From a virus, in the IMG/VR virus record IMGVR_UViG_3300048838_000286, positions 1-33,320 of that record: a DNA stretch of 33,320 nucleotides. The stretch is one strand, 5' to 3'. The position numbers were made by a program, and so were the translations under genes. Within the stretch, counting starts at the first letter, position 1. Each line of letters opens with the position of its first letter. Shown in pieces: positions 1,929 through 31,665 of this stretch. The notes beneath the pieces are model-generated. The model was not told the origin of the DNA and searched no databases. It saw nothing but the letters and a program-made list of their open reading frames with translations.

Positions 1929-3691
1929 TATGACAGTCGTTTCGTGATTAAGTAAGGCGGGAAGCCCGCGTCGATATAGTTTCGGATGTAGAACTCACCA
2001 ACAGCCACGCCACCCGCCGCTGCTGCCGTGTCGTCGTCGTAGGTATCGAGGCCGTCCACGTTGATACGCAAGATGCCACCCGGAAGGCCCATTTCATTGT
2101 CCGTCGAGACGGGGAATACGACGTTGTAGCCCAGGGCAAGCAGCGCCGACATACTGGAGGGGTAGCCGGTAAATGGCGCGAGCTGCTTCACCACCCCCAC
2201 AGGCAGACCGTAGATATTGTCCACCGTCAGGCAGTACATATCGCCCGCCGTCACCCCATCAGCCAGGGCTGCTGCGTCGCTGGCGTAGTCGCCCGCGCAG
2301 GATACCAGGGCCAGCGGTTCGAGGTATAGCCAGGATGAAGTATAGACCGCCGGGCATGACGGTGTGCTCACTACCATCTTAACGGCCCGGGTTCCGGCAG
2401 GGAAGGAAGCCGTGAAGGTCTCCTCAGCCAAAGAGGGCGATACCACCCCAATAAGCTGCTCCCCGTCGGCTCCGATCAGCGCATAGAAGGCGACAATAGC
2501 CGTTGGAACCGCCGCAAATTCAATGTCTTCGCCGTCGATCTCGATGATCTCATTAGTAATGAGGTCGCCAAGGCTGGGGCCATTCTGGAAGAAATACCGC
2601 CCCGTGTTGGCCTCATAGATGTATGTCCCCGGCGTTTGTGCCGCGTTGACAAAGTTCGTTCCGTTGTATTGCGCCATGTACCACCCTTGCGCCGGTGGCG
2701 TGGCGTTCGGGTTGTAGATCGCCACATAATCATCTACCTCCAGGTCCACCTGGGCGCCGCCCGGTGTGGTGTATTGGCGCGCGTCATAATCGCCTGAATC
2801 CTTCACGATCCAGGCGACTGCAAAAAGCGTTTCTGGCTTGCCCAGCACGTGATCGTAACAATTTCCCGCGTCTACATCGCAATCGCCAGCGCTATCCACA
2901 CCGCGCCCGTTGACCACTACTACCGAATCGGTGCGAAACTCGAACTCACAGACGGCCAGGTCTCCCTGCTCCTGCCATTCGACGTTCACAGTGATCTCAT
3001 CCACCTCGTGCTCTACATCGCCCCGGCTTACCACCACTGTGTCATGCAGAGGAATTAAGCTCATAACGTCGATCACCTCTTCGGGCAATACCAGGGCGAA
3101 ACGGTGGGACTTGAAACGGATCTGCTGCAATGGCAAGTTCACCCCGTCGCGGCGCTTCACCTCCTCCTCGTAGCCGTAAGACGGTTTCCCGATCTCTGTA
3201 TTCAGGTAGAAGTAGTTGCGGTAGCCTTCCGTATAGTCAATGTGCCCAATGTCGGGCAGCGGAAAGTCTTCGGCGTGGCAGTATTCGATCTTCCAGAGGC
3301 TCGACACGTCGCCCTTCATGCAGAAGTCCTCTGAATACCAGATGTAGACGCCGTTGCTAATCTTCAGGTAGTACACCCCTTCGCCCATCAGCGAGCCGGG
3401 GATGGCGGTCGATGCGCGCCACTTCAGGATCTTGTAATCGGGAAAGGTGTTCGTCTTCAGCCCGGCCAATACCATGCCGGGGTAAATGTCCGTCTCTGCT
3501 CCCGTCTCCCTGGAGATGAGCACTACCGAATTTACAGAAGCGGCATCCAGCGGATAGACTACCTGGAAGGGCGGGACCTGGTTGCGCGTCGTGCAGATCG
3601 GCGCGGCATGGCCGTAAGCATACGGCTTGTTGCGGTGCTGTTGGTCCAGCGACGTGTATATCCTCAATGCGCCTCCGTTATTCAGTATCAT
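1928..3691 (-). CDS. Large tail/baseplate protein, unknown family
   Basis: A 587-residue soluble protein with no membrane segment. I do not recognise a named domain. It is rich in beta-prone and aromatic residues (for example the YNGTNFVNAAQTPGTYIY region near residue 360) and has the look of a virion structural protein. The N-terminal half (to about 235) and the C-terminal half (after about 300) differ in texture, the latter resembling beta-sandwich repeats. It starts inside the end of the upstream gene (14-base overlap) and its TAA shares a base with the fibre ATG, so it is probably translationally coupled to both. Its place between the tail-tip gene and the fibre suggests a baseplate component or fibre-anchoring protein. 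Confidence 0.6.
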   Translation of the reverse strand: MILNNGGALRIYTSLDQQHRNKPYAYGHAAPICTTRNQVPPFQVVYPLDAASVNSVVLISRETGAETDIYPGMVLAGLKTNTFPDYKILKWRASTAIPGSLMGEGVYYLKISNGVYIWYSEDFCMKGDVSSLWKIEYCHAEDFPLPDIGHIDYTEGYRNYFYLNTEIGKPSYGYEEEVKRRDGVNLPLQQIRFKSHRFALVLPEEVIDVMSLIPLHDTVVVSRGDVEHEVDEITVNVEWQEQGDLAVCEFEFRTDSVVVVNGRGVDSAGDCDVDAGNCYDHVLGKPETLFAVAWIVKDSGDYDARQYTTPGGAQVDLEVDDYVAIYNPNATPPAQGWYMAQYNGTNFVNAAQTPGTYIYEANTGRYFFQNGPSLGDLITNEIIEIDGEDIEFAAVPTAIVAFYALIGADGEQLIGVVSPSLAEETFTASFPAGTRAVKMVVSTPSCPAVYTSSWLYLEPLALVSCAGDYASDAAALADGVTAGDMYCLTVDNIYGLPVGVVKQLAPFTGYPSSMSALLALGYNVVFPVSTDNEMGLPGGILRINVDGLDTYDDDTAAAAGGVAVGEFYIRNYIDAGFPPYLITKRLS

Positions 3692-5828
3692 GCGCCACCG
3701 TGATTTTCAGCGAGCGGGAAGAGATATTCAGGGTTGTTTCCCTGATTTCCCCAGTTCCTATTGCTGTGGTAATTAATTGCATCGGGTTCAGCCCCGCCGG
3801 TGCGGGTAGCTGCTCCTCCTGTATCTTTGCCCTGCGTACCGTCTCCGCTTCATCCTCCGCGCCGTTGATGCGGATGTCAGGCGCTGGCAATGCCCAGCGG
3901 TGATACTTATCATGCAGGTACAGCATACAGGCATAGCCGTTTTGCAGGTAGTACTCTTCTTCGGCAGAAATCACCACCTCCACCGTCGGCACAAACAGCC
4001 CGCCCGTTTCCTCGTCAGCGTCGAACAGGTAGAACCCATCTGGCGAAAGTGAGGCAGGCTGCACAAGCCCGTAGGCAAGGTCCGAGGTGAAGTTTCCAAG
4101 GTTCACATCCTCGAATTGCCCGCGCTGGATGAAAGGTGAAAGCATATCGAGCGAATAGCCAGAGAACGGGAACGACACCTGGTCCATCCATGCGAATCGG
4201 AAGCCTTCCGGCATGGCCTCTTTTTCGTACTTGTAGCGCCTTCCACGCCATCCCCATATCTTCCCTGTCTTTGGCTCCAATGCGGTGGTAATGTCTTCTC
4301 CTATGCCCGGTGTGGTGTAGCTGAGGCCGTTTTCGTAGTAGTGGACGTGTTCCAATACCATCTTCCCGCTTGCGATATGCCAATACACCCGGTATGCGTT
4401 CTTGAGTAGCGTGATGATCTCTCCCAATTTGACCGGCGCGCGCTGCGCTGGCTTGTCATAGTCGCCCTTCAGTACGTTCGATTTTGGCGTGATAACCAGG
4501 CGGGACCGGATAGCGCGGATGGTATTGCTGCCTGAATAGAAAAAGTCTGAATAAGCAGCCCCGTCGTCGTGCCCTACCAATGGGTCTATTTCAGCCAGTA
4601 GGTATTTCAGTACGTCGGACACCTTATAAGCGTCGCGGATGATGCGTTCGGTTGCTCCGTCGATCAATACCTGTTGCATATCGGCTGAGATGTACAGCCA
4701 CGCTGAGAACTGTGTCCAGTCGGAACGGTTCAGCGGGTACAGCGTACCGGATGCCGCCGTTGGCCTGACGAAGTATTCCCCAGCGAAGTGCAGGGAATCA
4801 TCGGCGAACTTGCCCCACATCCCGGCGTCGGCCTGGTGCAGGCTGCTGGCGATGACGCTTACAGCCTCATAGGGCAATACACGGGTGTAGTTGTAAGCCT
4901 CTTCCACTATGTCAGAAGTAGGTAGCGGGTCTGTTGGATCGCCGTCCACCGTCGCCTCGTTGGTCAGGATTCGCGCCCAGATATTGAGGAAAAAGACGTG
5001 GCATTCCGAAGAGCTTGTCAGGCTCTCGAATGGCGCGGGGTTCGGTGTGAATGAATCGGCCGGGATGTTCAGCGCCGCATTCAGCGCCTTTCGGTACACC
5101 ACCGCACCGGATGCCACCTCGTAGACTTCCCATTGAATATCCGGCGAAGATACAAGCGGGTTAAGCCGCATGGCATACACGCCGTCCTCCCGGAAGATTG
5201 GCGGCGAACCGCCTGTATAGATGTATTGCCCTGAAATATCCGGGTCTAATACGCTATCATCCCCTGCGATGATATACACGCCGGACGGCGCGAAAAAGTA
5301 GGTATATTCCAGGTCAAACTGCAATGGCGGCGCGATAGCTAGTGGTTGTTCCCAATGCGTTGATCCTATGTAGTTGGTCAGGTAGTTGGCTCCCAGCAGA
5401 TACACCTGTATTACCGGCTGCTGCAAAAACCTCACCGGCGTTCTCGGAACATCCAGGCGAACAAGGTCAAACTCCCGATCCATTGCCGCCATCACGTTGT
5501 CATAGTCGTCCAGCGGTTCGGGCGTGACGGTCCACGTCCGGTTGTCCTCGTCGATGGTGGCGTCGCTTCGGTAAAAGTACCCGGTAAACAGTGCGTCCCA
5601 CGTCCCGGTGAACTCTTCCAGCGTGATTTCTACTTTGTCGCTCATGCCGCAATTCGCCAGCAGGTAGTCGAAATCGCCCCGAACAAAGGTGATCTCCCCG
5701 GATAAGCGCGAACGGAAGAATACCTCCCCGCCTTCCCGGCTGGACTGTATCGAAAGATCGCCCTCATAAATGGGGTTGACGTTTCGGAACTCGTCGGTGT
5801 ATATGGTCCAGCGAATCGGATTACGCAT
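3678..5828 (-). CDS. Tail tip / baseplate hub-like protein
   Basis: A 716-residue protein lying directly after the tape measure gene, where distal tail and hub (Tal/gp27-like) proteins are normally encoded. It opens with MRNPIRWTIYTDEFRNVNP. Residues 1-110 hold segments (LSGEITFVRGDFDYLL, WDALFTGYFYRSDATID) that read like the two-layer beta structure of Dit/Tal-type proteins: a displacement imposed by a substrate description followed by a TGYF strand. No peptidase or lysozyme motif was seen. It overlaps the end of the tape measure gene by 8 bases. The role is inferred mainly from synteny and size. Confidence 0.6.
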   Translation of the reverse strand: MRNPIRWTIYTDEFRNVNPIYEGDLSIQSSREGGEVFFRSRLSGEITFVRGDFDYLLANCGMSDKVEITLEEFTGTWDALFTGYFYRSDATIDEDNRTWTVTPEPLDDYDNVMAAMDREFDLVRLDVPRTPVRFLQQPVIQVYLLGANYLTNYIGSTHWEQPLAIAPPLQFDLEYTYFFAPSGVYIIAGDDSVLDPDISGQYIYTGGSPPIFREDGVYAMRLNPLVSSPDIQWEVYEVASGAVVYRKALNAALNIPADSFTPNPAPFESLTSSSECHVFFLNIWARILTNEATVDGDPTDPLPTSDIVEEAYNYTRVLPYEAVSVIASSLHQADAGMWGKFADDSLHFAGEYFVRPTAASGTLYPLNRSDWTQFSAWLYISADMQQVLIDGATERIIRDAYKVSDVLKYLLAEIDPLVGHDDGAAYSDFFYSGSNTIRAIRSRLVITPKSNVLKGDYDKPAQRAPVKLGEIITLLKNAYRVYWHIASGKMVLEHVHYYENGLSYTTPGIGEDITTALEPKTGKIWGWRGRRYKYEKEAMPEGFRFAWMDQVSFPFSGYSLDMLSPFIQRGQFEDVNLGNFTSDLAYGLVQPASLSPDGFYLFDADEETGGLFVPTVEVVISAEEEYYLQNGYACMLYLHDKYHRWALPAPDIRINGAEDEAETVRRAKIQEEQLPAPAGLNPMQLITTAIGTGEIRETTLNISSRSLKITVAHDTE

Positions 5829-8800
5829 GGTAGATGGTTTTGCGGTTGCGGAATACCTCTACCGTGCGGCCCTGCGCGTCCGTGTATATCTTGCGTTCCC
5901 CCTGGCGCCGTATCTGCTCAAGCTCCCTCTCCGTGCGGCGCATATCGGCAGACATGACTACGGGGGAGAAGTTTATGCCCTCGGCCCCCGGCATGGCGCG
6001 TTCCAGCCTGCCCCGGTTGATCGCATCGACAAGGCCCGGCAACACATCCCGGTAGATGCCGACGGCGCGCCGATTGAAAACCGCGAATGCCTCGCCGCGT
6101 TCTGCCGTGCGTTGCCGACCGTCGCGCGTGAATCCCAGCGGGTTGTCGTTGCCACTGGCGTGGCTGCCCCCGTAGTCCAGAAACTCGAATCCACCTTTGG
6201 CGTACTGCTTTTTCGTCAATTGCCCTGCTTTGATCTGCGCAGTGGCGAATGCACCCCACATGACAGCCAGGGCAAGCAGGGCGAATGGTAGTTTGAAGTC
6301 GGCAAGGATCTTCGATGATGCGGTGACAAGGTTGGCCGCCTGCGTCGCTGCCTGTATCTGCTGCTGCGCCCGTTGCGCCTGCCGTTGTTGCTCCAGGGCC
6401 TTTTTCTGATTGTCTTGCGCCAGGCGAAGCTCCTTTTTGGCCCGTTCCACGTTCGAGGCATAGCCCAGATTTGCGGCTTCCAGTTCTGCCTGCAACGCTG
6501 CTTGTGCTGCTTGCACCTCGTTATCCGATCGCTGCACCGCCTGGTTGGCCGCCTCCACGCGCTTTTGCATGAACTCATCGAGCTGCTGCTTGGCGAAGGA
6601 GAATGCGTCGTTGAGTACACCCATTTCCTCGTCGGTGATTCCCAGCAATTCGGCGATGGTTCGCCCGTCTCGCTGGTTCAGCTTTTCGTCAATGGCGCGA
6701 ATCTGGTTTTCGATGGTCTGTATTTGCAGGTCGGTGAGGTTCCCGGCGTATTGCTGATTCAGTTCCAGTAGCTTTTTCAGTTTGGCGCGTTCCAGTTCAA
6801 GTTCGGTATCTGCCCTTTCCTCTGCGCTCATCTCCACCAATGCCAGGCGGCTGCGCTCCAACTCTTGTTGCTGGTCGAAGCGTTCCAGGTCGGCGGCATA
6901 GAGGCGGTCAGCCTCCGCAATGGCGGCATCCATGCGCTCCTTGGCGAATTGCGCGCGCACCCTGGCTTTTTCGCTCTCGATCAGGTCTTCCAAAGCTACC
7001 GTGCTCAATCCGAACTGCTCCAATTTTGCGCGCTGTTCTGCATACACCTCGTCCAGCTTGGCAAGCTCTACGGCCTGCCTCTCGGCGATGGTCTTTGCGC
7101 GCCCCTGAATTACCCCGGCCTCGAATTTGGCGAAGTCTTCCAGCGTCTTTTGGCGTTCGGCTGCGATGCGCGCTTCCTCAGCTTGTTGCTCCTTGAGGAT
7201 GGCAGCTTCTGCGGCGGCGGCTTGCGCCCGTATCTCCACCCCTTGCGTGACCAGTTCCCGCCGTCTGTCAATGGCGGCGCGTTCGGCCTTCACTACCTCG
7301 CCCTGCAAGCGGGCTATTTCGAGCCGCCCTTCTGCGTTGGTATCGTTCGCGCTGGCTTCCAATTGCGCCTGAGTCAGCCGCATCTTTGCGAGCTTCACTT
7401 CAGCGGCTGATACCTGGTTGACCAGTGAGATGGCCTTCTGGCTGGCAGCAAGGCGCTGCGCGGTGTCTTTCTCCCGGTTGGCGGCTATCTCCCTGTTGAT
7501 GGCTATCTCTCTTTCCAGCGTCTCCCGTCGCGCTTCCCAGGCTATTTCCTCTTCCCTCAACGCGATGCGGTTGGCGATGATGCGTTTACCCAACTCGAAA
7601 TTAGCTTTCACATTCTCCTTGGCCGCCTCGGTAGCGCCGCCGATAGCCCGGCCCAGGGCGTCTAATCCAGTAGCCTGACCGGCGGCCTTACCCAACTCCT
7701 CGAACCCTTCCTTGAAGTCGCCTTTCAGAATCTTGGCGAACGCCACACCGAACCGCGCAAAGCCTTCTATCCGGTCGATCAGGAATTCCTTAATTGAGTT
7801 GCCCAAGCTCTTGATGGCGCCAATAGGGTCCTGCACCGCTGCTTTGAATCGGTCGAACGCCTTGAAGGACAATTCCTGAAGCAGCCCCAATAGCCCTTGG
7901 AATACAGTCTTCAGCGGAACCAGCACCCGATTGAGCGCGTCGATACCCCGCTGCGTAGAGAAGAAGGCAGCCACAAGGGAGCCAAGTATTACCACTATGG
8001 CCCCGATGCCGGTAGAGATAAGAGCGATGCGGAACAGCTTCAGGGGCGAAAGATTGGCGGCGATGGCGCGGGAAAGGGCTATTTTGGCCTGTGCAAGTCC
8101 ATCAACCGCGCTACTATATGCCCGCATCACAGCCGAATAGCCGGGTATATTGTTTGCGAACAGGTCGCTTTCTGCCAGGGCCTTCTTGACACTTTCGGTG
8201 TAGTTACCCACGTTGAGGGTGTGCTTTCCGGTCACCTCTTGCAGCCGCTTCATTTCCTCATACAACTCTGCCGCCTGCTTTTCCATCGCTTGCCCCGCTT
8301 GTGTGCTGGCCCGTTCGGCGGCCGTCATGTCGTTGAGCTTGATTTTGAGGATGGAATATTGGGCGCTCAGCGCATTGTACGATCCGGCGCGGCTCATAGC
8401 TAGCTTGGCTTCCAGCTTATTGATCTGGTTCATCTTTTGCGTGGCAAGCCGTATAGCCTCCGATTTGATTTTGTTATCATCCAGCGCTTCGGCATACTTG
8501 GCCAGCGCCTTTTCCATCTCTTCAGTAAGCTCCACACTTTCTGCGATGGTCTCATTCTGTTCCTGTTGGGCTTTTTCGGTCTTCTTGATAGCCTCCTCTG
8601 CGCTCTTTGCCGCCGCTGAAAATTCGCGGTGCTGCTTGTCTAGTTCGTCAGCCCTGGCTGCTGCCTTTTGCAGCGATTCGGCGTAGTTCTCCGTTGTGCT
8701 GGCAATCTTCTTCACCTCTACCTCCAGGCGCACAGCGTCCTTGCGGGTACTCTCCAGGAGTGCCTCGTAGGTAGACTTCAGGCTCTTCAGTTGCTCTATC

Positions 8801-23994: not shown

Positions 23995-24021
23995 AAAAAG
24001 GGCAGGGAGTTACCCCCGCCC
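23995..24021 (-). terminator. Intrinsic terminator before the resolvase start
   Basis: A 9-bp stem on the minus strand (GGGCGGGGG pairing with TCCCTGCCC, two G-U pairs) with loop TAAC, followed by TTTTT. It ends the transcript of the acidic membrane protein and lies 5 bases before the resolvase ATG. Confidence 0.8.
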
Positions 24022-24028
24022 GTCAATC

Positions 24029-24502
24029 TCATGAAAAATCTACTATCATCTTTTCGTCCGGGCGCTCGATCTCGTCATCGTCCGGCATATCGTCGGGGCC
24101 GTCGTAGTCCCCGTCTGTGTCGTTCAACACCTCCAGGACTGTGCCGGGGTGATGCGGCATGGTTTCGGGGGCCAGGACCTGCCACCCTTCGGCGTCGTTG
24201 CGGGCAGCCCTTTCTTTTGCCTTGGCTGCCACTTTCAGGATACTCCGAACTGTGTCGGCGTCGGCTTGACTCATCGAGACCCACCCCGTGCCGTCATAAA
24301 CGTAATTACCCCCGTCACGCGGAGCGCCAATCGGCAATTCAGCAAGCGGGTTTTTCTCGAACACGGGCTCGGGTTCCGGTTTCCCTAATGCGCGGCGCAA
24401 CGGCTCGTATATTGCCCAGAACCCCGCAAACACGATGATAGCGGCAACCGGGATGCAGAGGATGACCGTGATGATTGTGCCGACAAGATCGTGGATATTC
24501 AT
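24029..24502 (-). CDS. Single-pass membrane protein with acidic cytosolic tail
   Basis: A 157-residue protein. The start at 24502 (MNIHDLVGTIITVILC) is chosen because the promoter -7 box lies within the longer in-frame extension to 24547. One hydrophobic helix at about residues 8-30 (GTIITVILCIPVAAIIVFAG), then a soluble tail with DGDYDGPDDMPDDDEIE near the end. No family recognised. A monocistronic unit bounded by its own promoter and terminator, so it is expressed independently of its neighbours. Could be a holin-like or superinfection-related protein, but the single TM and long tail do not settle this. Confidence 0.6.
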   Translation of the reverse strand: MNIHDLVGTIITVILCIPVAAIIVFAGFWAIYEPLRRALGKPEPEPVFEKNPLAELPIGAPRDGGNYVYDGTGWVSMSQADADTVRSILKVAAKAKERAARNDAEGWQVLAPETMPHHPGTVLEVLNDTDGDYDGPDDMPDDDEIERPDEKMIVDFS

Positions 24503-24516
24503 AGGGGCAATTTTCC

Positions 24517-24548
24517 CAAAGTTACTGAATTGCGGTGAATTATGCAAC
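24517..24548 (-). promoter_or_regulatory. Bacteroidota-type promoter
   Basis: TTG (24547-24545) preceded by G, a 20-base spacer, then TAACTTTG (24524-24517), an exact TAnnTTTG match. It lies just after a terminator and 14 bases before the ATG at 24502, giving a very short leader. Confidence 0.8.
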
Positions 24549-24571
24549 AGTCAAGAAATCCTTTACAGTTG

Positions 24572-24600
24572 AAAAAAGGCCCCCACCACCGGGCAGGGGC
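24572..24600 (-). terminator. Intrinsic terminator of the GIY-YIG operon
   Basis: A 9-bp stem on the minus strand (GCCCCTGCC with GGTGGGGGC, including G-U pairs) and tetraloop CGGT, followed by six T. It closes the operon that starts at the 25899 promoter, 9 bases after the last stop codon. Confidence 0.8.
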
Positions 24601-24609
24601 AAAACAACA

Positions 24610-25002
24610 TCATATAAAACCATCAGGATACATTTTCCAAAGCCACAGAACCCCAAGCACCACCGCGCCCAACAACGCCCACCGGATGACGAACACGGCA
24701 AGCGAGATGACAATAGCCGGGATAGCGGCGATGATGAAAAAGCGCTCGGTATGCCCCGAACCCCAAAAGCCCACCCTACACCACGCCATGAGGCTATGAA
24801 CGAATTGTTCAACCTGGTAGGCAAATGGAATGCGGATGTACCATATCGGAATATCCCACCCCGGCGCGGACTTGTCCACCTGCTTGTGGCGGGTTTTCCA
24901 GTCGCCTGAAATGCCCACCTTGACCGTCCAGATGAAAGGGATATTCCATAAGACGTATAGCCATTGTGCGCGGGATGTGCCGTTTCCTGATTTGCGGGTC
25001 AT
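24610..25002 (-). CDS. Membrane-anchored GIY-YIG-like (T5orf172/MUG113-type) protein
   Basis: A 130-residue protein. Residues 13-90 fit a compact GIY-YIG-like fold: WLYVLW as the GIY-like strand, VKVGISGDWKTRHKQVD as the YIG-like strand plus catalytic Arg helix, a conserved Glu in AYQVEQFVHSL, and GHTERFF at the end, as in T5orf172 proteins. Two hydrophobic helices follow (about 88-105 and 108-124), so the nuclease-like domain would sit on the inner face of the membrane. That combination is unusual. The start overlaps the upstream stop as ATGA, and the gene is last in its operon. Possible roles include attack on incoming DNA at the membrane (superinfection exclusion); this is inference. Confidence 0.55.
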   Translation of the reverse strand: MTRKSGNGTSRAQWLYVLWNIPFIWTVKVGISGDWKTRHKQVDKSAPGWDIPIWYIRIPFAYQVEQFVHSLMAWCRVGFWGSGHTERFFIIAAIPAIVISLAVFVIRWALLGAVVLGVLWLWKMYPDGFI

Positions 25003-25097
25003 GGCCTTCTCCTTTTGGGCTGCCCCTTCTTCACCTCTAACTCAGCGAGCCAGGATGCGAGGACAAGCAGCGTGAACAATGCGATGCTATAACTCAT
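24999..25097 (-). CDS. 32-residue membrane peptide
   Basis: MSYSIALFTLLVLASWLAEL then a basic tail (KKGQPKRRRP). One transmembrane helix with a positive C-terminus. Both junctions are 4-base ATGA overlaps with neighbours, which is strong support for translation despite its length. Topology (short N-terminus, one TM, basic cytosolic tail) is compatible with a pinholin-like or regulatory small membrane protein. Confidence 0.55.
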   Translation of the reverse strand: MSYSIALFTLLVLASWLAELEVKKGQPKRRRP

Positions 25098-25336
25098 ATC
25101 TTTCCCCATTTTTCCCACCAATTCAAGGCGTATCCCCTGAAAAAAGGCGGGAGCATGTACAATGTGGTTTCATTAATCTCGATCAACTCAATGCACCCAG
25201 CCTGCCTATCCCGTGATGCCCGTTCCCATACCGCCAGCCGCTTTTCGTCGGGTATGACTACCAGGTATTGGTAGTCTGTCCGGCCTAGCGGAAAGTCGAT
25301 TATGTGGTATATGTACGGGATTCGGGCAAAGATCAT
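25094..25336 (-). CDS. Hypothetical protein
   Basis: An 80-residue protein (MIFARIPYIYHIIDFPLGRT) with strands YQYLVVIP and CIELIEINETTLYML. ATGA overlaps on both sides place it firmly in the operon between the 182-residue gene and the small membrane peptide. No family recognised. Confidence 0.6.
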   Translation of the reverse strand: MIFARIPYIYHIIDFPLGRTDYQYLVVIPDEKRLAVWERASRDRQAGCIELIEINETTLYMLPPFFRGYALNWWEKWGKI

Positions 25337-25881
25337 CCCCTTTCCTTTTCAGCGTTCGCCTCTTCGATGATCCTGGCAAGCTCAGCCACCGCATCACAAA
25401 AAGCGGTGTCTACGGTCCGGTGGATGCGGTCTTTCACACTCGACGAAGCCGCCCCGCTGCTGACTTCGCGGGCAAGGCGGGTGATATGGTTCGCCCATTC
25501 GCATTCGATGGCGTGGCGGATAATCTCCTGCGCCTCTTTGTCGGATGCTTCAACGGTGTTCTGCGCATAGTCAACCCATGGCAACTCCTGGCCCTCGTAG
25601 TTGTCGTTGATCCAGCATTTGCGGGTGCGCCCATCATAGGCTCCAATGAAGCCCAGGTAGTACGCACTGGAAAGGAACGATTCCAAGGAGAGGTAGAACG
25701 GGATGCCAGTTTCGTAGCCCTCGAAAAAGCCGGAGATGCCTTCGGGGGATACGGTGATGTCGTAGAAAAAAGCGTCCGGGTGTTGGAGTTGGGACGCGAT
25801 ACTTTGAAGGATAGAACCCAAGCTGTCAATCTTGGGATGGCTGATCTTGGACGCGATGCGCTGGAGGTCTTGCGGTTTCAT
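25333..25881 (-). CDS. Hypothetical first gene of the GIY-YIG operon
   Basis: A 182-residue protein from the ATG at 25881 (MKPQDLQRIASKISHPKIDS); a longer in-frame start at 25911 would lie upstream of the predicted transcription start. The middle contains an aromatic beta-like region (FFYDITVSPEGISGFFEGYE) and the C-terminal third is helical (AIECEWANHITRLAREVSSG; AELARIIEEANAEKERG). No catalytic motif seen. Its promoter is directly upstream, so it is the leader cistron of a four-gene operon ending at the 24572 terminator. Confidence 0.6.
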   Translation of the reverse strand: MKPQDLQRIASKISHPKIDSLGSILQSIASQLQHPDAFFYDITVSPEGISGFFEGYETGIPFYLSLESFLSSAYYLGFIGAYDGRTRKCWINDNYEGQELPWVDYAQNTVEASDKEAQEIIRHAIECEWANHITRLAREVSSGAASSSVKDRIHRTVDTAFCDAVAELARIIEEANAEKERG

Positions 25882-25898
25882 ATCCGATGTTGTTTCCT

Positions 25899-25930
25899 CA
25901 AAGATAAACAAACCTATTCACATTTGTAAA
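25899..25930 (-). promoter_or_regulatory. Bacteroidota-type promoter of the GIY-YIG operon
   Basis: TATCTTTG (25906-25899) matches TAnnTTTG exactly, with TTTA (25930-25927), three of four -33 bases, 20 bases upstream. The -7 box ends 17 bases before the ATG at 25881. It follows the tRNA-cassette terminator. Confidence 0.7.
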
Positions 25931-25952
25931 TAAATTTATTCCCTTGGTTGGG

Positions 25953-25992
25953 TTTTAAAACCCGGCCCGCCAACAGGGCGAAGGCAGGCCGG
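25953..25992 (-). terminator. Terminator of tRNA cassette A
   Basis: A 10-bp stem on the minus strand (25992-25983 with 25971-25962; CCGGCCTGCC with GGCGGGCCGG, one G-U pair) and 11-base loop, followed by GTTTTAAAA. Short T-run, so termination may be partial. Equivalent hairpin in cassette B. Confidence 0.6.
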
Positions 25993-26014
25993 GCGCCAAC
26001 AAATTGTAATCTCG

Positions 26015-26087
26015 TTGCGGGGGCCGGACTCGAACCGGCGATCTCCAGGTTATGAGCCTGGCGAATTACCACCTTTTCCACCCCGCG
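26015..26087 (-). tRNA. tRNA-Met(CAT), initiator-like
   Basis: A 73-nt cloverleaf. Acceptor GCGGGG/CCCCGC preceded by C1 facing A72, the unpaired C1-A72 end that marks bacterial initiator tRNAs. Anticodon arm CCAGG-CTCATAA-CCTGG gives anticodon CAT with U33. T arm GCCGG-TTCGAGT-CCGGC. The D arm is weak (GAA/TTC) with GGTAA in the loop. Two of the three initiator G-C pairs are present in the anticodon stem. No CCA is encoded. The same octamer (GGCAACTT) precedes nucleotide 1 as in the other three RNAs, supporting the 5' end. Confidence 0.85.
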
Positions 26088-26177
26088 AAGTTGCCGTCTC
26101 TCCGTGCTGTCACCCTTCTTTCAGCCTCTCAGTTTTCTTTCTGTAAGGGTAAGGCAATAAAGTGCCGGTTGCACTTG

Positions 26178-26321
26178 TGCAGACTCCCGGACTCGAACCG
26201 GGATGGAAAGAGCAACCAATCCACACCCCTCACTTTTGCCGCAACGCTGCAACCGGCGCGGATATCCGTCGTCACGGAAGGCATAATTGGGGCGCGCGTC
26301 TACCATTTTCGCCAAGCCTGC
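26178..26321 (-). tRNA. Class II tRNA-like RNA with a 59-nt insertion at the anticodon loop
   Basis: The ends are a good tRNA: acceptor GCAGGCT with AGTCTGC (7 bp), discriminator A, T arm CCCGG-TTCGAGT-CCGGG, and a tRNA-Leu-type D arm GCG-AAAATGGTAGA-CGC. The anticodon stem is best drawn as CGCCCC (26294-26289) with GGGGTG (26229-26224), closing a 59-nt loop (26288-26230) instead of 7 nt; a variable arm TGGA...TCCA follows. Without the extra loop the RNA would be about 92 nt, normal for a class II tRNA. The anticodon cannot be read. It may be an intron-bearing tRNA, a decayed tRNA or a repurposed tRNA-like RNA. Confidence 0.6.
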
Positions 26322-26376
26322 AATTTGCCGCCCAACTCTTTTGCAGGGCGGCCCTTTCCAAAAACGAAAAACCAAC

Positions 26377-26508
26377 TTATTCTTTCACCTCCACCCACCG
26401 GCTACTTAAGTTCATTTCGTCAGGGCCGATGATGTGCCGTGTGCCGAAGTCGAACGTGACGTACCACGTCTGGATGGATGGGGTTGGGGTTGGGTTGCGC
26501 TGGTTCAT
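26377..26508 (-). CDS. 43-residue protein
   Basis: MNQRNPTPTPSIQTWYVTFD onward, ending SSRWVEVKE. A proline/threonine-rich N-terminus leads into a beta-like region (WYVTFDFGTRHIIGP). The start overlaps the upstream stop as ATGA. Its end, SRWxxVKE-TAA, matches the end of the unrelated 167-residue protein in the other cassette copy (SRWNAPVKE), so the duplication boundary falls inside the coding region. Function unknown. Confidence 0.55.
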   Translation of the reverse strand: MNQRNPTPTPSIQTWYVTFDFGTRHIIGPDEMNLSSRWVEVKE

Positions 26509-26888
26509 GGGTGGAAATGTTCGAGATTAAACGCCCAATTATCGATCTGGCCATTTTCGCTGATATCCATTATGATGTAATCTCCATACCCTTTTTCTTT
26601 CGGGCAAAGCGAGCCCGGCACGTATGAATCCTGAACTATCAACCTTTCATCGTTGTCGAACACAACCTCCCAGCTACATTCGTCGCAAACCTTGTAATGA
26701 ATATCTGCTGTTTTTCCTTGCTCCCAGTTCGTTATTTTGCCTGTGTCTATTTCAATCTCTGGACACCATCTATCCCCGTCCTTGCACGGGATATTATCGC
26801 CCGATTCGGTATCGGGCTGCCCGTTAACAATGGCATCCTCCCAGTATCGAACATAGGCGGATAGTTTCAAAATGATTGGCTTTTTCAT
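26505..26888 (-). CDS. Conserved phage protein of unknown function
   Basis: A 127-residue protein from the ATG at 26888 (MKKPIILKLSAYVRYWEDAI); the longer in-frame start at 26948 runs back through the terminator and tRNA spacer. It has a recognisable hypothetical-phage-protein pattern: AYVRYWEDAxVNG, then WCPEIEIDTGKITNW, HYKVCDEC, and GYGDYIIMDI near the C-terminus, with five cysteines (35, 42, 68, 71, 95) that may bind metal. No function is established for such proteins as far as I know. It starts 15 bases after the T-run of cassette B's terminator. Confidence 0.65.
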   Translation of the reverse strand: MKKPIILKLSAYVRYWEDAIVNGQPDTESGDNIPCKDGDRWCPEIEIDTGKITNWEQGKTADIHYKVCDECSWEVVFDNDERLIVQDSYVPGSLCPKEKGYGDYIIMDISENGQIDNWAFNLEHFHP

Positions 26889-26899
26889 AGATTGAGTTT

Positions 26900-26937
26900 T
26901 TTTAAAACCGGCCCACCAACGGGGAGAATGCGGGCCG
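26900..26937 (-). terminator. Terminator of tRNA cassette B
   Basis: An 8-bp stem on the minus strand (26937-26930 with 26916-26909) followed by GTTTTAAAAAAAC. The sequence and loop (ending CCCCGTTG) match cassette A's terminator. It lies 15 bases before the ATG at 26888. Confidence 0.55.
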
Positions 26938-26959
26938 CGCACTAACAAATTATATCTCG

Positions 26960-27054
26960 CAGGGATGGCAGGACTCGAACCTGCAAGGGCTTAGCTGCTT
27001 AACAGCTTACCCACCCGATCATCGCCGGGCGCGTGTGCATTTCGCCACATCCCC
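26960..27054 (-). tRNA. Class II tRNA-like RNA, anticodon uncertain
   Basis: A 95-nt RNA. Acceptor GGGGATG with CATCCCT (one G-U), T arm GCAGG-TTCGAGT-CCTGC, D stem GCG/CGC. The D loop lacks the conserved GG. The anticodon stem CCCG/CGGG would close an 8-nt loop (GCGATGAT) without a proper U33. A long variable arm (GGGTAAGCTG/CAGCTAAGCCC) with AGCTG/CAGCT pairing follows; its apical TTAAG would read as UAA if it were instead the anticodon loop. It may be a decaying Leu- or Ser-type tRNA or a tRNA-like RNA. Preceded by the same GGCAAATT octamer. Discriminator G; no encoded CCA. Confidence 0.55.
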
Positions 27055-27124
27055 AATTTGCCGTCTCTCCGGGCTGTCAAGCCTTGTAAATGATTGGGGA
27101 GGCGGCTTTCCCCCATGTTTTTTG

Positions 27125-27228
27125 TGCAGGCTCCCGGACTCGAACCGGGCGTAATGCTCGCCGACTTGCCTCTCGTGCAAGCCCCGATGCTTTCGCTTAA
27201 CACATTACCTGGCCTTTGCCAAGCCTGC
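27125..27228 (-). tRNA. tRNA-like RNA with an enlarged core
   Basis: A 104-nt RNA. Acceptor GCAGGCT with AGCCTGC (perfect 7 bp) and T arm CCCGG-TTCGAGT-CCGGG, nearly identical to those of the RNA at 26178. The region between acceptor and T arm is too long for a normal tRNA: it has a GGTAA typical of a D loop, a helix CTTGC-ACGAGAG-GCAAG with a 7-nt loop (anticodon GAG if real, but lacking U33), a GCGAAAGC hairpin, and GTAATG that can pair with CATTAC next to the T arm. Functional tRNA-Leu(GAG) is possible but not supported by a clean cloverleaf. Confidence 0.5.
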
Positions 27229-27365
27229 AATTTGCCCCACCTTCCGATGGGGCCATCCTGGGAGGGTCTGGTCCATGCTTTAGTAGCTCGCAGAATTGCC
27301 AGGACTTTTAAGCTTGCCGCCCAGCTCGTTTGCCGGGCGGCTTCCCCTACAAAACGAAAAACCAA

Positions 27366-27869
27366 CTATTCTTTCACCGGCGCATTCCACCGGCTGTCTC
27401 TTGTACTCAGTACGATGTCGCGGTTGAGGAAAATGTAAGTGGTGATCTCCACGTAATCGCGGTACGGCTTTTCCAGGTTGGCTCCTTTCAGCTTGCCTTG
27501 CCGGGTAAGTTCACCGACCAGCCGGTCAAGAAGGCAGTCTGGCGGTATCGGATTTTGGTCGGTGGCTACCTGGAAGCAGTTCGTCTGGAACGCTACCGCT
27601 CCGGAAACGTAGCCGCCCCAATTCCGCTTAATCGTGTACGACACCAACACCGTCGGGTCTTTTGGCGCGGCAATGGCATACCAATATGGAATTGTGTCGC
27701 AAACAGGCGGCCATTGGATATTCTCCGATGCGTCGTATCCGTACCAGTACGGGAAATGCATTGCCGGTTTCGCAAGGGGGCCCCTCACTGACGAAGCATA
27801 TTCGGAATCCTGGCCAAATACTGCCACTGCGAAAAGGGTGAAGAGAACGAGGAAAAATGCGTGTCTCAT
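27366..27869 (-). CDS. Secreted or periplasmic protein, unknown function
   Basis: A 167-residue protein with a clear signal peptide (MRHAFFLVLFTLFAVAVFGQ, cleavage likely after residue 19 or 20). The mature part has aromatic motifs (FPYWYGYD, CDTIPYWYAIAA) and three cysteines; no domain recognised. It lies 9 bases after the exonuclease gene stop and upstream of tRNA cassette B. An exported phage protein could modify the host envelope or interfere with superinfection; this is only inference from the signal peptide. Confidence 0.6.
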   Translation of the reverse strand: MRHAFFLVLFTLFAVAVFGQDSEYASSVRGPLAKPAMHFPYWYGYDASENIQWPPVCDTIPYWYAIAAPKDPTVLVSYTIKRNWGGYVSGAVAFQTNCFQVATDQNPIPPDCLLDRLVGELTRQGKLKGANLEKPYRDYVEITTYIFLNRDIVLSTRDSRWNAPVKE

Positions 27870-27878
27870 ATCGTTGTG

Positions 27879-28703
27879 TTAAAAGTTGAAAAATCCGTCA
27901 GCGTCGCCCCAAAATTCGGGGCCTTGGCTCATATCTTCCTCCATATTCAGCCTGTGCGCGGCGCTTATTAGGCGGTTCCATTCAATGCGGGCCTTTTCCC
28001 TAGCGTCGCGGCCAATTCGGAACGGGGTAACATATCCGTCATCATCGACGGCGATCAGGTAATATTCCACCGGCTCGCCCACTTCATCGAATGGGTGGCA
28101 GTAAATGGCGGCTTGCAGGTCGTACTTATTGTGGCGTATCTGAGCAGCAACGAGGCTTTCACCTGATCGACTGCCCATTTTTTTCAAATCCCATATTACC
28201 CGCTTACCGTTGCGGTCGTAGCCGGAAGCATCCCGGATACCGCGATGCAGGAAGCCCTTATAAAAGAACTGCACCGGCTCCTGGAATTTGAAAAAGTCCG
28301 GGTTGAGCAGGCCGGCAAACGCGACGGTTCCAGAATTGCGGACGCTTTCAGCGAGGAACAAAGCATTGTCGTATTGCTCTTGCTTCAGTACCGTGCGATC
28401 TCCTATCTTATCCTGCAATGCCTCCCACTGCGCTACCTGCGCTAAGGTGGCTTCGCTTGGCTTTTTGGCTTCAATCTGCGCTTTTGTCGGCTTCTTCACA
28501 TCGTCCGGCATGATGAAAAACAAGCGGTCGAAATCGTCCGGCGTAAACAGTAGGCAGTCCAGGGCGCTACCCTCGATCATGGCGGCGGTAGGCTCGAATG
28601 CCTTGTCGATGTACCGGGAGAGTGCAAGCGGAGAATGCGCCAACTCTTTCAGCCTGGAAAAAGACAGGTGTGTGATTGTTTTGGTTGTAGTGCCGGCCGT
28701 CAT
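27879..28703 (-). CDS. PD-(D/E)XK exonuclease, RecT partner
   Basis: A 274-residue nuclease. LSFSRLKELAHSPLAL (residues 13-28) is the typical N-terminal motif of phage RecE/exonuclease-VIII-like and DUF3799 nucleases. The catalytic core follows: D158 in GIRDASG, D172-x-K174 in VIWDLKKM, and YDLQAAIY (about 194-201). The usual His in the G-x-A-x-H motif is replaced (GSALDCLLF, Asp at 49). Together with RecT it would make 3' overhangs and promote single-strand annealing during replication and repair. Stop and start with RecT overlap as ATGA. Assignment by motifs. Confidence 0.82.
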   Translation of the reverse strand: MTAGTTTKTITHLSFSRLKELAHSPLALSRYIDKAFEPTAAMIEGSALDCLLFTPDDFDRLFFIMPDDVKKPTKAQIEAKKPSEATLAQVAQWEALQDKIGDRTVLKQEQYDNALFLAESVRNSGTVAFAGLLNPDFFKFQEPVQFFYKGFLHRGIRDASGYDRNGKRVIWDLKKMGSRSGESLVAAQIRHNKYDLQAAIYCHPFDEVGEPVEYYLIAVDDDGYVTPFRIGRDAREKARIEWNRLISAAHRLNMEEDMSQGPEFWGDADGFFNF

Positions 28704-29449
28704 GCTGCAAGTTGGTTTTTGCGTTCGCTGAATAGGTCGGCAAATTGCGCATGGCGGTAGTCCTGCTTGTACAGATTCATCAGGTCGGCTGCGCTATTAC
28801 ATTGTGCTATCTTCTCCTTCAGGTCGTCCACGTCGATCAGCACTTCCGGGCGCTGTGTGGCAGCTTGCACGGTAGTATCCTGGAATGCTTCACGCTCCTC
28901 TTCGACATGGAGGCCGGCGGTTTCGTCTGCGAATGCCATACGCAGGGCAGCGGCTTCGGCGCACTTTTCGAGCATATTGAAACCCATGCCTATCCACTTG
29001 CCGGACAACTTGGCTGGTGCGTATTCGCGCCAAAGAACAGTTTTCGTAAAGGCGGCTCGATGCCCGGAAACCATGCGGTACACGGTCACGGTGCAGGTGT
29101 CCGGGAACGGCTTCCCGGATGCCAGCACATCGGCGGCGGTCAGGTATGAGCCGTCAGCGCGGCGGTTGAACTGCGCATCGTCTTTCCCGGCGAGCTGCCC
29201 CGTGCGGGCTGCTTTGGCCCGGAGACCGTCGATGCCGACGATGGTGTTATACTGCGTGCCGTACTTCACCAAGTATATTTCCCGCTTGTACGGGCTGAGG
29301 CCATGCGCTGCGCAGGTGGCGGCGAATACCTGGAGGACCGGCGCCGGCGTGTCATACGGGATGATGCTAGCTTTCGCCAGCGTGTCAATCTGCTCACGGG
29401 ATAGGATGCCCTCCCGGATGTTGTTTACTTTTTCAACTTGGGTTTGCAT
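28700..29449 (-). CDS. recT: RecT-family single-strand annealing protein
   Basis: A 249-residue protein with the RecT/Bet signature: FAATCAAHGLSPYKREIYLV, then YNTIVGIDGLRAKAARTGQL (residues about 67-86), KTVLWREYA, and MGFNMLEKCAEAAALRMAF. It binds single-stranded DNA and anneals complementary strands in phage recombination. The C-terminal third (from about 190) is a linker and helical region that may bind host SSB or the exonuclease. Neighbours (nuclease downstream, 4-base overlap) match a RecET-type pair. Confidence 0.88.
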   Translation of the reverse strand: MQTQVEKVNNIREGILSREQIDTLAKASIIPYDTPAPVLQVFAATCAAHGLSPYKREIYLVKYGTQYNTIVGIDGLRAKAARTGQLAGKDDAQFNRRADGSYLTAADVLASGKPFPDTCTVTVYRMVSGHRAAFTKTVLWREYAPAKLSGKWIGMGFNMLEKCAEAAALRMAFADETAGLHVEEEREAFQDTTVQAATQRPEVLIDVDDLKEKIAQCNSAADLMNLYKQDYRHAQFADLFSERKNQLAA

Positions 29450-29744
29450 ATGATGTGTTTTTTATTCTCAACTTCTCTGCCCACTTTGCGATGAAGGCCT
29501 CTGCTGCCTCCTCAAACATTGGGGCTTGGTTTTCCGGGTCGCTGATGTACGCCGGATTAAGACCGGCTCCCGGCAGCTTATTAGCGTGGCGCTGCCAGAA
29601 CGCCGGCGGCAAGGTCGTCATGCCGTACAAGATGTTTACCCGGCTCTGGCTGAGGCCCAAAAAATCTGCGGCCTCTTGCTGCGTGTCGAACTGCATTCCC
29701 AGCAGTTCGGCCAATCGTTTTCCTTCTCCTTTCAATTCTTTCAT
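29433..29744 (-). CDS. Small helix-turn-helix protein
   Basis: A 103-residue protein from the ATG at 29744 (MKELKGEGKRLAELLGMQFD). HTH at about 20-42 (TQQEAADFLGLSQSRVNILY). The C-terminal half is acidic and helical. A promoter ends 4 bases before this start, so the mRNA would be nearly or fully leaderless, and longer in-frame starts (29927) are excluded. Overlaps the RecT start by 17 bases. Probably a transcriptional regulator of the recombination genes, but Cro/repressor identity is not established. Confidence 0.65.
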   Translation of the reverse strand: MKELKGEGKRLAELLGMQFDTQQEAADFLGLSQSRVNILYGMTTLPPAFWQRHANKLPGAGLNPAYISDPENQAPMFEEAAEAFIAKWAEKLRIKNTSYANPS

Positions 29745-29748
29745 AATG

Positions 29749-29780
29749 CGAAGGTAGAAAAAGGAAATGAGATTTGCAAA
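29749..29780 (-). promoter_or_regulatory. Promoter for the HTH-RecT-exonuclease operon
   Basis: TTTG (29780-29777), 20-base spacer, TACCTTCG (29756-29749). One mismatch to TAnnTTTG. Predicted transcription start falls at or next to the ATG at 29744. Confidence 0.7.
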
Positions 29781-29790
29781 TATTTTTATT

Positions 29791-31665
29791 TTAAAAAGGA
29801 ACATCCTCGTTATTTTTTCGCCCCGGCTCAATCCATGCGTCTGCATAATAGAACGGTGCGGGCGTTCCTTCAATGTACGGCATACCCTTTTCGTCGCGGA
29901 GGAACGAAAATCCAGGGAATGGCGCAAAGCGGGTTTCCCGGCATTTCACGTCGAATATGTTCGTATTGCGGTCCCTCAACACTTCTATGCCGAAATCGTA
30001 CTTGTTCTGTAATGCGGTGCCCAAGTGCCCGCGCATGAAGCCCTCGCTTTTCGTCAGGTGGAGGACGGTCAGGAACAGAGCGCCGGTTTCGTCACTCCAG
30101 CGCATCAGGTGTTCCATCGTCCGGGCACTGGCTGTTTCGTCGTTGAAATTGTCGCACAGGTCGACAATACCATCTATGACAACTAAGCCCAGATCTTTTC
30201 GCCCTGCCAACATCGCTCCTATCGCGCGCACCCGGTCACGTGGATTAAGGCGGCGCAAATGGTAGGCTTCGTAGTAATCCCGGTTAGAGTATATCCCTGC
30301 GAGATGGTGGATGCGTTCTTGCGTCTTTTTATAGAAAAACCCGCTTTGCTCGGTGTCGAAGAAGGCAATGTTTTTGCCGCGCATCTCCATACCGAAGCCT
30401 AACTTCCGATCACCATCAGCAAGGGCAGATGCCACAATACAGGAAGCGACGACACTTTTTCCGGCCTTTTGCGCCCCTACTACTGCCCCGATCATGCCGA
30501 AGCCTCCTAGCTTCCATATCTTCCCTTCGTTGTCAAGGGTCAGGGTCGCGTGTTCCTCTTTTATCGGTGCAAGAATGTCAAACCGGGTCGACTTAACAAA
30601 AGCCAGCAAATCGCCGATATGTTCTTGTTTGCGCTCAACGGCGGGCTGCTCTTGCTCGGTTGCCGGCTCAACCCTTTCAATAGGCGCTGGGAGGCTTTCG
30701 CCGTACCCTTGCGCTCCAAGATCTTTTACCGCCGCTTTCGCATCCCCGCCATGCTCCATCGCTGCATATATTCCAAATGCGCTGTATCCTTTCTCCGCTT
30801 CCAATGCCGTCGACGTGGAGAACGTCATGAACACCCCACGTCCTTTATGGAAATTGCCTGATGTTTTTGCGTCGCTGTTCCCTGGCCTTTTGAGATGCAC
30901 CCTTTCGCCATCCTCGCTGACCACTGTCCACCCATAACCGCAAAGCAGGTCGACGGCGTGGTTCTTGTCGTTGAAATCGTCAATGACCGTTTTGCCGCCT
31001 GTAGCGCTTGGCTGATTGATGCGCGGCACTTCAGTGTCGGGCTTGCTCTTTTGCGTCACTTCGTTGAACGCCCTGGCTGCCTGAAGCAGGTAAAACCGTT
31101 GGCGCTCAGTGATGGTAGGGATATTGGTAAGATCCCCGTATTGCATTTCATACCCTGGTGTCGGATGCGCCACCACATAACCACCTGTGCCGCGCGTCTC
31201 GATCAGGCATTGAGGCAGCTTTGCCGGGTCATCTATCGGGCGCTCAACGGTGGCATTGTGCGCGGCAAGCTCTTCATCCGTGGCTATCCGCATCGCTAAC
31301 TTCTGATTACCCTCGATAGTGCGACAGCGATACAGGACATGATACCCGCCGTTCATAGTGGACTGAACCGGCATATCCAAGATGCCGCATTCATTCCCAC
31401 TGTACAGATCATTATACTTCACATACCGCACAAATATGCTTTTGGTTGGGTCGTGCTTCTCATCCACGTCGATCACCTCCAAACCTCCCGGCCCCGTCAA
31501 GATCGCCAAGCCCCAGGGGTTGCCGGAAAATAGCCTGCGCACATCCTCCTCCGTCTGCTGCGCTTGAAATTGCTTCCAGGGTCCGGTCGGTCGCTTGTCG
31601 GGGTTCACGGGGATGACGTGCAGCCCGGTTCTGTGGTACTGGAGTGCGGCTTCCTGGATGGTCAT
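29791..31665 (-). CDS. Primase-polymerase fused to a RepA/DnaB-type helicase
   Basis: A 624-residue replication protein. Residues 1-180 are a bifunctional prim-pol domain: catalytic IDVD (D66, D68) and GGYH (106-109) plus GTGGYVVAHPTP around 159-170. A middle region (about 225-320) resembles the domain linking primase to helicase. The C-terminal RecA-fold motor has Walker A GAQKAGKS (397-404), Walker B LVVIDG (494-499) and a sensor-like FLTVLHLTKSEG (about 531-542). It would unwind DNA and synthesise primers at the phage fork. It overlaps the upstream initiator gene as ATGA. Confidence 0.85.
   Translation of the reverse strand: MTIQEAALQYHRTGLHVIPVNPDKRPTGPWKQFQAQQTEEDVRRLFSGNPWGLAILTGPGGLEVIDVDEKHDPTKSIFVRYVKYNDLYSGNECGILDMPVQSTMNGGYHVLYRCRTIEGNQKLAMRIATDEELAAHNATVERPIDDPAKLPQCLIETRGTGGYVVAHPTPGYEMQYGDLTNIPTITERQRFYLLQAARAFNEVTQKSKPDTEVPRINQPSATGGKTVIDDFNDKNHAVDLLCGYGWTVVSEDGERVHLKRPGNSDAKTSGNFHKGRGVFMTFSTSTALEAEKGYSAFGIYAAMEHGGDAKAAVKDLGAQGYGESLPAPIERVEPATEQEQPAVERKQEHIGDLLAFVKSTRFDILAPIKEEHATLTLDNEGKIWKLGGFGMIGAVVGAQKAGKSVVASCIVASALADGDRKLGFGMEMRGKNIAFFDTEQSGFFYKKTQERIHHLAGIYSNRDYYEAYHLRRLNPRDRVRAIGAMLAGRKDLGLVVIDGIVDLCDNFNDETASARTMEHLMRWSDETGALFLTVLHLTKSEGFMRGHLGTALQNKYDFGIEVLRDRNTNIFDVKCRETRFAPFPGFSFLRDEKGMPYIEGTPAPFYYADAWIEPGRKNNEDVPF

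Follow-up and report, generated by a model that had tools for sequence, protein, structure and literature searches.

The 33,320-nucleotide (nt) virus record IMGVR_UViG_3300048838_000286 from IMG/VR (positions 1 to 33,320, hereafter the window) carries two diverged copies of a small-RNA cassette. The stretch GACAGC-N-CGGAGAGACGG between the RNAs of each copy, described beforehand as a spacer, is the 3′ core of a distinct structured RNA, which we designate RNA X. It comprises an H-type pseudoknot (helices S1 and S2), a GAC(A) joint and a hairpin, P2, with the loop GAGAGA. As far as the tools used here reach, RNA X constitutes an undescribed RNA family and is new in that sense, although it may turn out to work by a known mechanism. 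No match was obtained in Rfam 15 at the gathering or a permissive threshold, the only Rfam families recognised elsewhere in the same loci being tRNA and abiF. The sequence appeared in no paper of the literature searched, and keyword searches returned none describing it; the scope of these searches excluded subscription journals and preprints.

The S2 strand consists of the bases immediately 5′ of GACA, which pair with an upstream strand. An exact partner of 5 base pairs (bp) lying at most 25 nt upstream was present in 97 of 259 non-redundant sites, whereas swapping partners between sites gave 17.8 on average and at most 31; this is the unbiased test of S2. Bases ahead of the S2 5′ strand join the start of the S2 loop to form S1, generating the H-type pseudoknot. 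S1, which played no part in the choice of sequences, reached at least 3 Watson-Crick bp in 42 of 88 sites (15.2 expected; maximum 31 in 500 swaps) and at least 4 bp in 18 of 88 (4.2 expected; maximum 12). In an alignment of 61 sequences the pair types of both S2 and P2 varied, with CG, GC and UA included in P2; as members were picked for having the S2 stem, its “100% paired” columns reflect selection and only the variety of pairs is informative. The pseudoknot loop is very variable in length, and many unpaired bases are invariant.

A covariance model, R1, was made from other loci with the window left out, and cmsearch with R1 recovered both window copies on the minus strand. Copy B (27058..27115; 41.6 bits, E = 4e-9) has S1 TGGGG/CCCCA, S2 AAGCC/GGCTT, GACA and the hairpin GC(C)CG-GAGAGA-CGGC. 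Copy A (26091..26155; 25.7 bits, E = 7e-5) has S1 GCCT/AGGC, S2 ACCCTT/AAGGGT, GACA and the hairpin GC(A)CG-GAGAGA-CGGC. A preliminary description of this DNA had taken the GACAGC block for a processing signal; the block is not shown to be one, and forms the core of a separately folded, covarying RNA.

Phages and prophages of many bacterial phyla carry RNA X, either singly between genes, in tandem arrays or as one member of a tRNA array. Scanning IMG/VR with GACAGCNCGGAGAGACGGCAA returned 27 contigs, and a pattern tolerating pairing changes matched at least 120 stretches there and at least 119 in GTDB genomes. The GTDB matches listed span Proteobacteria, Clostridia, Spirochaetes, Planctomycetes, Bacteroidales, Chloroflexi, Akkermansia and others. 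Short blastn queries placed RNA X, mostly between annotated genes, in the cultured phages mEp390, Cronobacter CS01, Sinorhizobium phiM9 and Gordonia Sour, and further in Mannheimia 587AP2, Phaeobacter MD18, Microcystis Mwe-JY26 and others. Within one genus just 2 of 41 genomes carried it, as expected of a phage-borne gene or prophage cargo. RNA X appears to be a common and conserved phage RNA, missing from the RNA family library used for genome annotation, and offers an easy way to flag small-RNA arrays in phage genomes without annotation. The preliminary description had predicted further copies with differing RNA cargo, and the GACAGC block does recur in hundreds of phage and prophage loci, where the adjoining RNAs are tRNAs of many isotypes, tRNA-like RNAs and abiF-like RNAs. 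Its picture of a cassette with swapped cargo and conserved signals holds as a description of the duplication; the GACAGC block is not shown to be one of the processing signals.

TGACAGCTCGGAAAGACGGC or a relative was also noticed in the genomic 3′ untranslated region of two single-stranded RNA soil phages, Esthiorhiza.2_44 (L275, ~1490-1525; record positions 4250-4280) and Gerhypos.1_32 (record positions 4153-4193). In both cores S2 fits poorly and the E-values are weak. The presence of RNA X in RNA phages, if true, would favour a role at the RNA level.

The genomic context of RNA X is mostly intergenic. At 40 of 148 sites it lies 0-50 nt from the start of the next open reading frame (ORF), the others being farther away, and in about two thirds of cases RNA X runs in the same direction as both neighbouring genes. 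These are ordinary, diverse phage genes, and no recurrent family was found among them. Given the spread over many phyla and the lack of a constant neighbour gene, RNA X would appear to act on itself or on something nearly universal in bacteria.

Most sites have no adjoining tRNA. In the region from −500 to +420 around RNA X, 34 tRNAs were found for 259 sites compared with 14 for 1479 controls, a density ~14 times higher. Many of the 34 begin 2-9 nt past the RNA X hairpin, as in the window, and 19 are tRNA(CAT), against 1 of 14 in the controls. The order in phage MD18 is tRNA-Leu, tRNA-Leu, RNA X (in a slot of 77 nt), tRNA-Leu and more tRNAs, and in Mwe-JY26 RNA X sits between tRNA-Gly and tRNA-Trp; in both it behaves as one more small-RNA gene of the tRNA array. 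The window shares with these arrays a short intergenic run on one strand, with members a few nt apart and RNA X as a unit. It differs in that its units are mostly aberrant tRNA-like RNAs and in that the array is duplicated around a protein gene. Tandem use is clearest in contig L070 (415-950, minus strand), an intergenic array of five consecutive RNA X units with a constant S2 stem, GCGACACC..GGTGTGAC, plus one abiF-like RNA; loops and P2 stems differ between the units. Similar arrays are found in L104, L110, L111, L113, L116 and L117. In Pseudomonas phage Medea1 (L307, 393-1160), RNA X and a tRNA(CAT) missing from the annotation share a gap of ~770 nt between annotated genes.

In contig L069 an abiF-like RNA (RF03085, 27.5 bits) lies directly behind RNA X, in the slot that tRNAs occupy at other loci, and is followed by a second RNA X. 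A stem-and-loop pattern detected such elements in six contigs (L069, L070, L104, L110, L111 and L116), all at most ~120 nt from RNA X and with covarying stems; the reversed-pattern control gave 0, and the pattern matched once in L171, with no RNA X nearby. These elements have the AAG...CUCAAA loop motif, and a second one that was scored reached 23.2 bits. The abiF RNA is a demonstrated trans-acting RNA antitoxin (PMC12373285), paired with AbiF. It resembles RNA X in being a small structured RNA used in tandem, and its relatives share the RNA X arrays of the six contigs. RNA X is nevertheless distinct in sequence and fold (pseudoknot plus GAGAGA hairpin), does not match the abiF model and has no Abi_2 gene nearby; the Abi_2 gene (PF07751) was found in 0 of the 6 abiF-like contigs. 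Separately, the IMG/VR record of L117 (L276) contains an abiF RNA at 6142-6178 that scores 43.2 bits, above the Rfam cut-off, in a phage contig; it is ~8 kb from the RNA X array and does not adjoin it.

We favour the reading, to which we give a probability of roughly 0.4, that RNA X belongs, as a single unit, to an array of small decoy RNAs carried by the phage and may act in trans as a decoy or antitoxin mimic. Transcription would start upstream of each cassette, and the transcript would be cut into separate stable RNAs, with RNase P probably cutting the tRNA 5′ ends, as in tRNA biology generally. RNA X and the tRNA-like RNAs would be left over as small stable RNAs, and the transcript would end at the terminator. 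With less certainty, RNA X, like the neighbouring tRNAs, tRNA-like RNAs and abiF-like RNAs, may serve as a decoy against host RNA-cleaving or RNA-controlled defences, the outer framework providing stability and the exchanged part specificity. A decoy role would explain the rapid change of the displayed part (pseudoknot loop, hairpin stem or anticodon domain) within a conserved framework. Phage tRNAs are known to evade tRNA-directed defences (PMC11555353). If RNA X is a decoy, it offers a handle for finding the defence it counters. A wider version is that phages of most phyla carry exchangeable arrays of decoy RNAs (tRNAs, tRNA-like RNAs, abiF-like RNAs and RNA X) that disarm RNA-cleaving or RNA-controlled defences, RNA X being the most widespread member and directed at an undiscovered defence; we regard this extension as unlikely, though conceivable.

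Several observations weigh against a decoy role. No recurrent PADLOC defence family was found beside RNA X, and RNA X was beside Abi_2 genes in 0 of 26 loci. The abiF-like scores tested (27.5 and 23.2 bits) fall under the RF03085 cut-off of 37, and the S2 stem and gene context shared by the six contigs concerned suggest that they come from a single group of related phages. The sites were gathered with an exact core pattern, and the invariance of GACA and GGAGAGAC stems in part from that selection. Finally, RNA X is mostly found singly, close to an ordinary phage gene, an arrangement that would suit a cis element equally well.

Such an element, a processing or stabiliser site or a structure on which an RNase lands or is blocked, would separate or protect the RNAs of a polycistronic transcript, in line with the processing signal of the preliminary description. 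The location of RNA X a few nt 5′ of tRNAs is consistent with this, as are the 0-50 nt spacing at 40 of 148 sites, the shared direction at about two thirds of sites and the lack of a constant neighbour. We treat it as a serious rival, though somewhat unlikely: tandem arrays of up to five units, as in L070, have nothing between them to separate, the conservation of sequence besides shape (GAC and GGAGAGAC) goes beyond the needs of an RNase site, and RNA X occurs in hosts with very different sets of RNases.

Were RNA X a small self-cleaving ribozyme, it would release the individual RNAs of the array. Its place at RNA boundaries, compact pseudoknot, invariant unpaired bases and variable loop length would suit such a role. 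RNA X matches no Rfam ribozyme family, however, and no fixed dinucleotide resembling a cleavage site was seen outside the core. The similar core in the 3′ untranslated region of the two single-stranded RNA phages, where cleavage would be harmful, argues in the same direction, although this evidence is weak. We judge a ribozyme quite improbable, but still a serious rival.

The main genes of the window lie on the minus strand and include tail, portal, terminase, primase/polymerase and replication initiation families. Neither close relatives of this phage, sought by means of its DNA polymerase, nor near-identical phage DNA were found. All cassette transcription is on the minus strand, as are the window features given below, so that copy B (27378->26900) comes ahead of copy A (26389->25953), with a protein gene separating the two. 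Alignment of the coding strands of A and B by blastn gave five collinear blocks with E-values from 2e-16 to 4e-6. These are the gene end with AAGAATA(A)GTTGG and the hairpin (85% over 67, E = 2e-15), the CGGCAAATTGCAGGCTTGGC junction (95% over 22, E = 4e-6), the T arm and acceptor of RNA 1 (96% over 28, E = 2e-9), the GACAGC motif (92% over 25, E = 1e-6) and the T arm of RNA 2 with the terminator (79% over 87, E = 2e-16). The best local alignment of A and B scored 80, compared with 20.6 ± 2.5 (maximum 30) for 300 dinucleotide shuffles. These data confirm the diverged tandem duplication of a small-RNA operon put forward in the preliminary description, whose blocks and coordinates were correct. 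Its two-RNA cassette stands as a cassette but not in its count of RNAs, since the “spacer” is a structured RNA: each copy holds three RNA elements, namely a tRNA-like RNA, RNA X and a tRNA or tRNA-like RNA, ahead of a terminator. On its own, the duplication is a modest variant of phage tRNA arrays.

As had also been claimed, divergence is seen in the RNAs between the blocks. Of the second RNAs, A2 is a sound tRNA(CAT) and B2 a poor one; the first RNAs, A1 and B1, are no more than tRNA-like. A2 (26015..26087) scores 60.6 bits with Rfam RF00005, is called by ARAGORN and starts 3 nt past RNA X. It has features of an initiator tRNA, with a C1xA72 mismatch at the first pair and the loop CTCATAA. 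Some VapC toxins target initiator tRNA. B2 (26959..27054), a poor class-II tRNA that likewise starts 3 nt past RNA X, scores 34.7 bits with RF00005 and is called Ile(GAT) by ARAGORN; its variable region is abnormally long, and a second hairpin presents GTTAAGC. By these RF00005 scores both A2 and B2 belong to the tRNA family.

A1 (26179..26321) has an intact acceptor, D arm (GCG-AAAATGGTAGA-CGC) and T arm, and in the anticodon position an 8-bp stem, CGCGCCCC/GGGGTGTG, enclosing ~59 nt. ARAGORN accepts it solely as a tRNA with a 54-nt insert in the anticodon loop (ARAGORN -i), and its fold is no better than that of shuffled sequences. B1 (27126..27228) combines a 7-bp acceptor, GCAGGCT/AGCCTGC, and a canonical T arm, CCCGG TTCGAGT CCGGG, with an aberrant body (fold z −2.0). 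Neither is called a tRNA by default ARAGORN or by Rfam, which gave no match even at E ≤ 5. Judged by the RF00005 gathering threshold and a 7-nt anticodon loop, both fall outside the tRNA family, and we describe them as tRNA-like only. The A1 insert contains GCCGGTTGCA (26248-26257), a perfect 10-nt complement of TGCAACCGGC (26164-26173) in the A1 3′ trailer ahead of RNA X; copy B showed no counterpart. In L016 a tRNA with a large anticodon-loop insert (3484-3613) lies ~440 nt upstream of RNA X, with a tRNA(CAT) following, an order nearly that of cassette A.

That A1, B1 and B2 make poor tRNAs yet keep good acceptor and T arms could also mean that the region is an ordinary tRNA array decaying after tandem duplication and that the odd RNAs are broken tRNAs, phage tRNA genes being often lost. 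RNA X is no tRNA relic, however, as it covaries and recurs in hundreds of loci. The acceptor and T stems of the tRNA-like RNAs stay paired while the body alone changes, and a comparable tRNA-like RNA, its anticodon loop enlarged, lies upstream of RNA X in L016. We consider decay a very improbable account. Phage T4 provides a parallel in its species 1 RNA (rnaC; L271, 909-1047; T4 70908-71046), a stable RNA that, like A1 and B1, has a canonical T arm, CCGGGTTCGAATCCCGG, on an aberrant body; the T4 tRNA cluster differs in that model R1 found no RNA X in the T4 region searched.

Among known phage and antitoxin RNAs, ToxI, the type III antitoxin, is also a pseudoknot. It is short (~34-50 nt) and arranged in tandem repeats (PMC12373285); RNA X differs from it by the additional hairpin and by the sequence differences between units of one array. 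ToxN was not among the families listed for RNA X neighbours, and a genome search for ToxN was without match, as were its controls. The put RNA of phage HK022 is a short, protein-free phage RNA with two adjoining stems that binds the zinc-binding domain of the RNA polymerase β′ subunit (PMC9378689). An RNA-only antiterminator of this type, letting RNA polymerase through untranslated tRNA regions, would suit the wide host range of RNA X and its position ahead of tRNAs or operons, but is the least probable reading, as R1 has no match in HK022 24000-30500, put is placed once behind an early promoter and is not described with a pseudoknot of the RNA X form, and antitermination needs neither tandem arrays nor sites between tRNAs with few nt remaining. 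Should RNA X prove to bind RNA polymerase or to act as a ribozyme, it would represent a new class of such RNAs.

The remaining features lie at the outer ends of the cassettes. Copy B begins with the end of a 167-amino-acid gene (27869-27366), ..SRWNAPVKE*, and the conserved AAGAATAGTTGGTTTTTCG block (27355..27378), which has 85% identity to the copy A block. In copy A the corresponding block, AAGAATAAGTTGGTTTTTCG, follows the end ..SRWVEVKE* of a 43-amino-acid ORF (26365..26389), as seen by blastn and translation. The preliminary description of these as unrelated protein genes is right for the genes but not for their common C-termini, SRWVEVKE and SRWNAPVKE, which are part of the duplicated block. 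Each block is followed by a perfect 7-bp hairpin with a 12-base loop, GCCGCCC-GGCAAACGAGCT-GGGCGGC in copy B (27316..27341) and GCCGCCC-TGCAAAAGAGTT-GGGCGGC in copy A (26327..26352). Neither the flank nor the hairpin was found to be the recurring signal that had been suggested: a search for the AGAATA-GTTGG flank found no copies elsewhere, and the hairpin had only two outside matches, both within transposase-like coding sequence with no RNA X or tRNA nearby, which we attribute to chance. At the 3′ ends, copy A has a terminator-like hairpin followed by a T run (25957..25996; fold z −3.8), and copy B a terminator-like G+C hairpin followed by a T run (26904..26940; fold z −1.25), on which the terminator scan made no call, the loop being too large. 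Copy B alone has ~90 extra nt (27229-27315) separating the hairpin from B1. These finish in a second hairpin, TGGCCCCA..TGGGGC, and share the 12-mer GGCAATTCTGCG with a tRNA-like RNA downstream of RNA X in L001.

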